A DNA stretch of 64,000 bases from positions 40,720-104,719 of the IMG/VR virus record IMGVR_UViG_3300046332_000238. One strand, written 5' to 3'. Source of the DNA: a virus. The notes below the pieces were generated by a model. The model made no database searches, had not been told where the DNA came from, and saw only the letters and a program-made list of their open reading frames with translations. Numbering within the stretch: the stretch's first letter is position 1; each line of letters opens with the position of its first letter. Both the position numbers and the translations under genes were made by a program. Shown here in pieces: positions 25,069-25,143 of the stretch.

Positions 25069-25143
25069 ATGAATTGGACTACACCAGCAGCAATTGATCT
25101 ACGTTTTGGTTTCGAAATTACACTTTATATCGCAAATCGTTGA
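25069..25143 (+). CDS. pqqA: PqqA, precursor peptide of pyrroloquinoline quinone
   Basis: 24 codons, ATG at 25069 with AGGAG 6 bases upstream, TGA at 25141. The peptide contains [16 protein letters not shown] followed by LYIANR. It has every feature of PqqA: W-x-x-P-x-x-x-DLR-x-G-x-E-x-T-x-Y-x-(S/A)NR, with Glu16 and Tyr20 spaced E-x-x-x-Y. In the known pathway these two residues are cross-linked by PqqE and excised to become PQQ, the cofactor of methanol and glucose dehydrogenases. No pqqB-E is in this window, so the host must supply the enzymes. It has its own promoter, SD and hairpin leader. Confidence 0.93.
   Translation: [24 protein letters not shown]

Follow-up and report, generated by a model that had tools for sequence, protein, structure and literature searches.

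A stand-alone pqqA gene on a T4-like phage contig very likely feeds the PQQ pathway of its host

The cyanophage genes psbA and psbD are auxiliary metabolic genes for photosynthesis. A viral gene serving PQQ biosynthesis has been described from Lake Baikal, where VP_266, a T4-like contig of 35% GC reported in 2020 with a predicted Methylophilaceae host, encodes PqqA (PMC7678222); pqqA, pqqE and pqqD are also listed among the virus-encoded genes of a reservoir study (PMC13188868). On the bacterial side, Methylophilaceae carry 3-12 copies of pqqA beside other pqq genes that are typically single-copy (PMC4109929), and a pqqA copy at a separate location shows high expression in a methylotroph that produces PQQ (PMC9851590). 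Since viral pqqA was reported in 2020, the kind of gene described here is known and the idea that a phage supplies substrate is not new; within the literature searched, it is the breadth of its carriage, its repeated acquisition and its substrate-only design that appear to be new.

The DNA analysed here (the window, 64,000 nucleotides) corresponds to bases 40720-104719 of a 104,719-bp virus record in IMG/VR (IMGVR_UViG_3300046332_000238), and the features around its pqqA gene are collected in Table 1. A sequence-only reading of the window had described a 24-codon ORF with a Shine-Dalgarno sequence, its own promoter and the PqqA residues including Glu16 and Tyr20; the ORF proved exact, AGGAGA is present and the predicted promoter departs from consensus at a single base. 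The peptide matches PF08042 (Pfam PqqA) over its full length with 35.1 bits (cut-off 21.1, E 1.2e-8) and TIGR02107 (the NCBIfam equivalog for the PQQ precursor peptide), likewise over its full length, with 36.6 bits (cut-off 20, E 2.9e-9), both well above the curated cut-offs in a search that had been set beforehand as the test of the identification. A six-frame search of the whole 104,719-bp contig returns this gene as the single PqqA match (1.1e-8). Its length lies within that of the family (about 22-30 residues), and both Glu16 and Tyr20, the residues of PqqA that are joined by PqqE, are present in an E-x-x-x-Y arrangement. Linkage to pqqBCDE, which is common but not a defining trait of PqqA, is absent, and a PqqA-like chain was not found among the solved structures searched. 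The predicted gene is confirmed by these matches as a complete PqqA peptide gene.

Table 1. Features of the pqqA neighbourhood, in window positions
Feature	Position	Strand	Basis
Rubrerythrin, not adjoining pqqA in the window	15095..15547	+	Pfam Rubrerythrin
Exonuclease (phrog_298), conserved upstream neighbour of pqqA	23946..24605	+	PHROG match, synteny
tmRNA promoter, TTGACA-17-TATAAT	24602..24630	+	12/12 sigma-70 consensus bases
Two-piece (permuted) tmRNA, conserved neighbour upstream of pqqA	24646..24926	+	RF04321 (Rfam tmRNA_permuted), 99.1 bits
Predicted pqqA promoter, TTGACT-18 nt-TATAAT	24998..25027	+	11/12 consensus bases
5' UTR hairpin, GTTATGTC-ATTTC-GACATAAC, between -10 and Shine-Dalgarno	25032..25052	+	Perfect inverted repeat, 8-bp stem
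Shine-Dalgarno AGGAGA, 5 nt 5' of the pqqA ATG	25058..25063	+	Sequence
pqqA, 24-codon PQQ precursor peptide gene	25069..25143, stop included	+	ORF translation, profile matches
94-aa conserved protein, directly 3' of pqqA	25216..25500	+	Homologues in relatives
Cell wall hydrolase / endolysin (Hydrolase_2)	25556..26050	+	Profile match
gp33-like late-transcription coactivator (Trans_coact)	26293..26526	+	Profile match
gp59 helicase loader	27192..27797	+	Profile match
gp32 single-strand DNA-binding protein	27899..28807	+	Profile match

The gene had been taken for a stand-alone unit between a tmRNA and virion genes. The tmRNA side of this description stands on the Rfam match, the permuted molecule being one that ARAGORN does not detect in the window; the virion side does not, the genes 3' of pqqA being those for the 94-aa protein, the hydrolase, gp33, gp59 and gp32. 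The best clan match of the tmRNA is beta_tmRNA (73.3 bits, under the gathering score of 84). Its tag appears to be ANDNSFRQVA, with a VA end (24890-24926), and the other phage tmRNAs of the set have the usual LAA end (e.g. ANDSEYALAA, ANDERFALAA). The 94-aa protein has zero matches among the Pfam and PHROG profiles and is the commonest product encoded directly downstream of pqqA in relatives (20 of 35 homologues, in loci among the matches listed). Its equation with the gene that follows the tmRNA of Melnitz was rejected, as a pairwise comparison shows no homology and the coactivator sits at 26293-26526. On the other side of the exonuclease, a 689-aa ORF (21855-23924) has internal repeats at 22115-23550, with self-matches of 74-99% at several offsets.

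The contig is that of a phage and not a bacterial chromosome, with T4-type genes for gp32, gp59, gp33, baseplate wedge and endolysin, and Pelagibacter phage HTVC008M shows weak DNA similarity to it. A second IMG/VR contig of 59 kb (L122) is 100% identical to the window across pqqA over 10,727 bp; L122 may share the window's sample, so that diverged relatives are the stronger evidence against misassembly, and these keep the order tmRNA-pqqA-94 aa-hydrolase-gp33-gp59-gp32 with pqqA at the same site, which bears out the expectation that related contigs carry the gene. Members of the 94-aa, hydrolase, gp33 and gp59 neighbourhood are common to about 35-43 loci, including the window, among the matches listed, and, of 14 pqqA loci tested, 10 have a tmRNA that matches an Rfam model, the clan match being the betaproteobacterial model for most of these. 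The small size of the gene, and the fact that one phage-labelled pqqA record is bacterial chromosome, might be taken to point to an artefact or a passenger, that is, to contaminating bacterial sequence, a faulty assembly or a neutral remnant of host DNA. Such an origin is extremely improbable, given the T4 genes on both sides, the second contig identical over 10.7 kb, the diverged relatives in the same order, the lack of pqqB-E nearby, the complete genomes of cultured phages with pqqA and the purifying selection described below. Contamination in particular was dismissed on the viral loci without pqqB-E, the flanking T4 genes and the identity of L122, possibly from the same sample. The pqqA gene of the window is a putative auxiliary metabolic gene: it resembles a metabolic gene of hosts and lies on the genome of a true virus.

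Two further sites of pqqA recur among phages, one adjoining genes for a small heat-shock protein and replication proteins (both named by reading the sequence) and one adjoining rubrerythrin (by Pfam). Rubrerythrin homologues directly flank pqqA in about 14 other phage loci, and the pairing suggests a linked redox/oxygen-stress module. Only 4 of 28 T4-like relatives gathered by their baseplate protein have pqqA, many of these contigs being fragments; this scattered carriage, typical of an accessory gene, indicates that the gene is dispensable for the lineage.

The search for PqqA on other phage contigs was rewarded: pattern scans of IMG/VR place the peptide, for the most part unannotated, on more than 240 viral contigs, which is a lower bound. 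At least 120 contigs match a degenerate DNA pattern built on the PqqA core, with a PqqA-like peptide in all those listed (in 4 the gene is clipped by the contig edge), and an OM43/LD28-type pattern found at least another 120, with PqqA in all matches listed. An alphaproteobacterial-type pattern (GMEVTSY) found 5 contigs, implying that viruses carry mainly the beta/gamma type. Each of 34 large pqqA contigs (54-365 kb) has exactly one copy; a T4-type gp23 capsid gene is present in 18 of them and a nineteenth has fragmentary matches only, and the gp23 scores form two groups, at about 460-513 and 323-332 bits. The contig IMGVR_UViG_3300049988_000245 (L485, 265,895 bp) carries an alphaproteobacterial-type PqqA, MKWSAPIVQEVCVGMEVTSYDSAEIDTFN, and its gp23 matches are fragmentary only.

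Both cross-link residues are retained in 122 of the 122 peptides listed (including two loci reached via a Pfam search), their codons having been left free in the pattern. Across 117 distinct phage sequences pN/pS is 0.21, from a pN of 0.14 and a near-saturated pS of 0.66, and phage pqqA is, by this estimate, under purifying selection. Conservation of the binding residues would likewise be expected of a decoy or brake, in which excess phage peptide competes with host PqqA, occupies PqqD/PqqE or yields no product, and so lowers PQQ and redirects the cell. A decoy could do without the residues that are cross-linked, yet neither varies at the positions left free by the pattern; moreover, the peptides of P19250A and of two other phage loci (L198 and L167) are near-identical or identical to those of the host and should be good substrates, and hosts themselves multiply pqqA (PMC4109929). 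A decoy role of phage PqqA is thus disfavoured, and we consider it unlikely.

Of 117 distinct leaders of phage pqqA genes, 48 contain stems of at least 6 bp, as compared with 14 on average and 26 at most in 200 runs of dinucleotide shuffling, an excess that carries no formal probability because the phages are related; the corresponding figures are 17% for the leaders of the remaining ORFs at these loci and 15 of 123 for hairpins in host pqqA leaders. The hairpins differ in sequence at the same place (36 distinct 5' arms), with a -10-like box just upstream in 32 of the 48. The hairpin may stabilise, from its 5' end, a pqqA mRNA that is tiny and in high demand.

For the enzymes that act on PqqA, pqqB-E were not found beside pqqA at any viral locus, by the same queries that detect them at 34-53 of 85 host loci. 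PqqE above the 381-bit cut-off was not found in 29 pqqA contigs, and a PQQ alcohol or methanol dehydrogenase (TIGR03075) is absent from 22, including that of the window; a phage dehydrogenase partner as in Lake Baikal was discarded for these 22 contigs. Some pqqA contigs encode radical-SAM-like proteins that match the PqqE model at 17-34 bits, far under the cut-off, by which a phage-encoded PqqE was ruled out for the 29 contigs. These sub-cut-off matches could be held to favour a different product, with a radical-SAM enzyme other than PqqE, from phage or host, modifying the peptide, or with the peptide serving as a small regulatory or structural molecule unrelated to PQQ. This is very unlikely, as the scores are 17-34 against 381 bits and the window's contig has no such protein, the core of the PqqA family is kept with both cross-linked residues, and carriage in cultured phages tracks PQQ-using hosts. 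The distribution of the pqq genes suggests instead that phages would supply the consumed substrate and the host the enzymes, the phage adding one more pqqA copy in the fashion of its host.

Among 50,697 phage records, PqqA queries gave 12 matches. Nine of them are genomes of isolates obtained on Methylophilales hosts, namely Melnitz (four), Venkman, P19250A, MEP301, MEP401 and MEP402, and the remaining three comprise a spring phage that is uncultured and two records named Acinetobacter phage MD-2021a. The latter two (CAKLQF020000010.1 and CAKLQH020000055.1) look like bacterial chromosome, and one of the pair (L003), with a complete pqqABCDE operon, ppk and fur, is bacterial chromosome. The nine genomes represent four lineages: a T4-like myovirus, the P19250A/Venkman group, Zobellviridae and MEP301. 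The P19250A/Venkman group falls in one genus-level cluster (PMC8163748). In the phage records pqqA either lacks an annotation or overlaps an unnamed CDS, and PqqA is nowhere named as a product; in Melnitz-1 (MZ577095.1, L002), for instance, a minus-strand hypothetical CDS at 74848-74943 (QZI94433.1) overlaps the likely plus-strand pqqA at 74882-74953. The searched text of the papers on Melnitz and on MEP401/402 does not mention pqqA. For terminase relatives with Pelagibacter, Vibrio or Lentibacter as host, PqqA was not found, which indicates that carriage tracks the host and not the phage family. The PqqA of P19250A is residue-identical to that of four 1.3-Mb Burkholderiales-order genomes, and its gene shares 62-63 of 66 bases with the three nearest of these among the matches listed.

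The window peptide belongs to a Burkholderiales subtype and not to the OM43/LD28 type. A database-wide scan of genomes for its subtype (A-x-D-[L/F]-R-F-G-F-E-I-T) returned record titles of Betaproteobacteria, unspecified Proteobacteria or bacteria and none of another named class, and the closest peptides come from a Polynucleobacter MAG (22 of 24 residues) and freshwater Oxalobacteraceae. Judged from peptide subtype and tmRNA type, the host of the window phage is probably a Burkholderiales bacterium. Several PqqA copies, up to 8, are often seen in Burkholderiales-order genomes (G173, G248, G367, G396 and others).

We propose that phage pqqA is a substrate-supply auxiliary metabolic gene feeding the PQQ pathway of the host, a function we regard as very likely. 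In the infected cell, the phage would make PqqA from its own promoter; host PqqD would bind the phage peptide and host PqqE would then join Glu16 to Tyr20, after which a host protease, PqqB and PqqC would complete PQQ, with one peptide spent per PQQ. PQQ output would thereby be maintained, PQQ-dependent alcohol dehydrogenases would stay charged, and alcohol oxidation would support phage production; for phages of OM43/LD28, the target enzyme would be methanol dehydrogenase. Because the peptide is spent 1:1 while the enzymes are catalytic, and host transcription presumably falls, a stand-alone pqqA would be the cheapest contribution a phage could make. We infer that the peptide is expressed and modified by host enzymes, and that a higher PQQ level would benefit the phage. 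Substrate supply was already the proposal of the sequence-only reading, and it gains from the occurrence of pqqA in unrelated cultured phages of methylotrophs, the invariance of Glu16 and Tyr20, the lack of pqqB-E and methanol dehydrogenase genes and the multiplicity of pqqA in hosts (PMC4109929). That reading had also linked the gene to PQQ-dependent alcohol oxidation with methanol as the example: the supply of substrate is supported, but methanol need not carry over to the phage's own host, since a PqqA of a Burkholderiales subtype makes alcohols other than methanol possible. As a dehydrogenase gene was not found in the 22 pqqA contigs, the target enzyme is presumed.

It is also likely that phages infecting PQQ-dependent Betaproteobacteria generally follow a strategy of supplying a cofactor precursor, unrelated lineages each having acquired a stand-alone pqqA. 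The lineages concerned would probably be two T4-like groups by capsid gene (including a 365-kb contig), the P19250A/Venkman group, Zobellviridae podoviruses and MEP301, and the acquired gene was probably given a strong Shine-Dalgarno sequence and often a 5' hairpin, with the enzymes left to the host. As standard gene callers tend to miss 24-codon genes, pqqA may be widespread yet uncounted, and it may rank among the commonest viral auxiliary metabolic genes in aquatic methylotrophs and related Betaproteobacteria. With phage pqqA, the idea that a virus replenishes a spent biosynthetic substrate, and not an enzyme, can be tested directly, and cultured phage-host pairs for this exist (Melnitz, Venkman, MEP301, MEP401/402 and P19250A). 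If substrate supply holds, viral infection would be tied to that part of the aquatic carbon cycle which runs through methanol and alcohols, and if the strategy is general, the PqqA subtype could mark host and PQQ demand in viromes.

Compared with the PqqA of Betaproteobacteria (TIGR02107/PF08042), the window peptide has the same length, Glu16, Tyr20 and ANR end, whereas the phage gene stands alone in a T4-like genome without pqqBCDE, with its own predicted promoter and a 5' hairpin. The methylophages Melnitz, P19250A, Venkman, MEP301, MEP401 and MEP402 also have a stand-alone PqqA with the same core as that of the window; unlike the window phage, their peptides have C-termini of the OM43/LD28 type (MNK, LNK, MTR) and their genes lie at other genome positions. 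VP_266 shares with the window phage a T4-like contig with PqqA and the same proposed role, but it is one population in which pqqA occurs with a viral methanol dehydrogenase, whereas here hundreds of contigs from several lineages carry pqqA and the dehydrogenase was not found. Cyanophage psbA/D supply a used-up component and keep the energy metabolism of the host running, as phage pqqA would; the difference is that psbA/D provide an enzyme or reaction-centre protein, whereas phage pqqA would provide a ribosomally made cofactor precursor.
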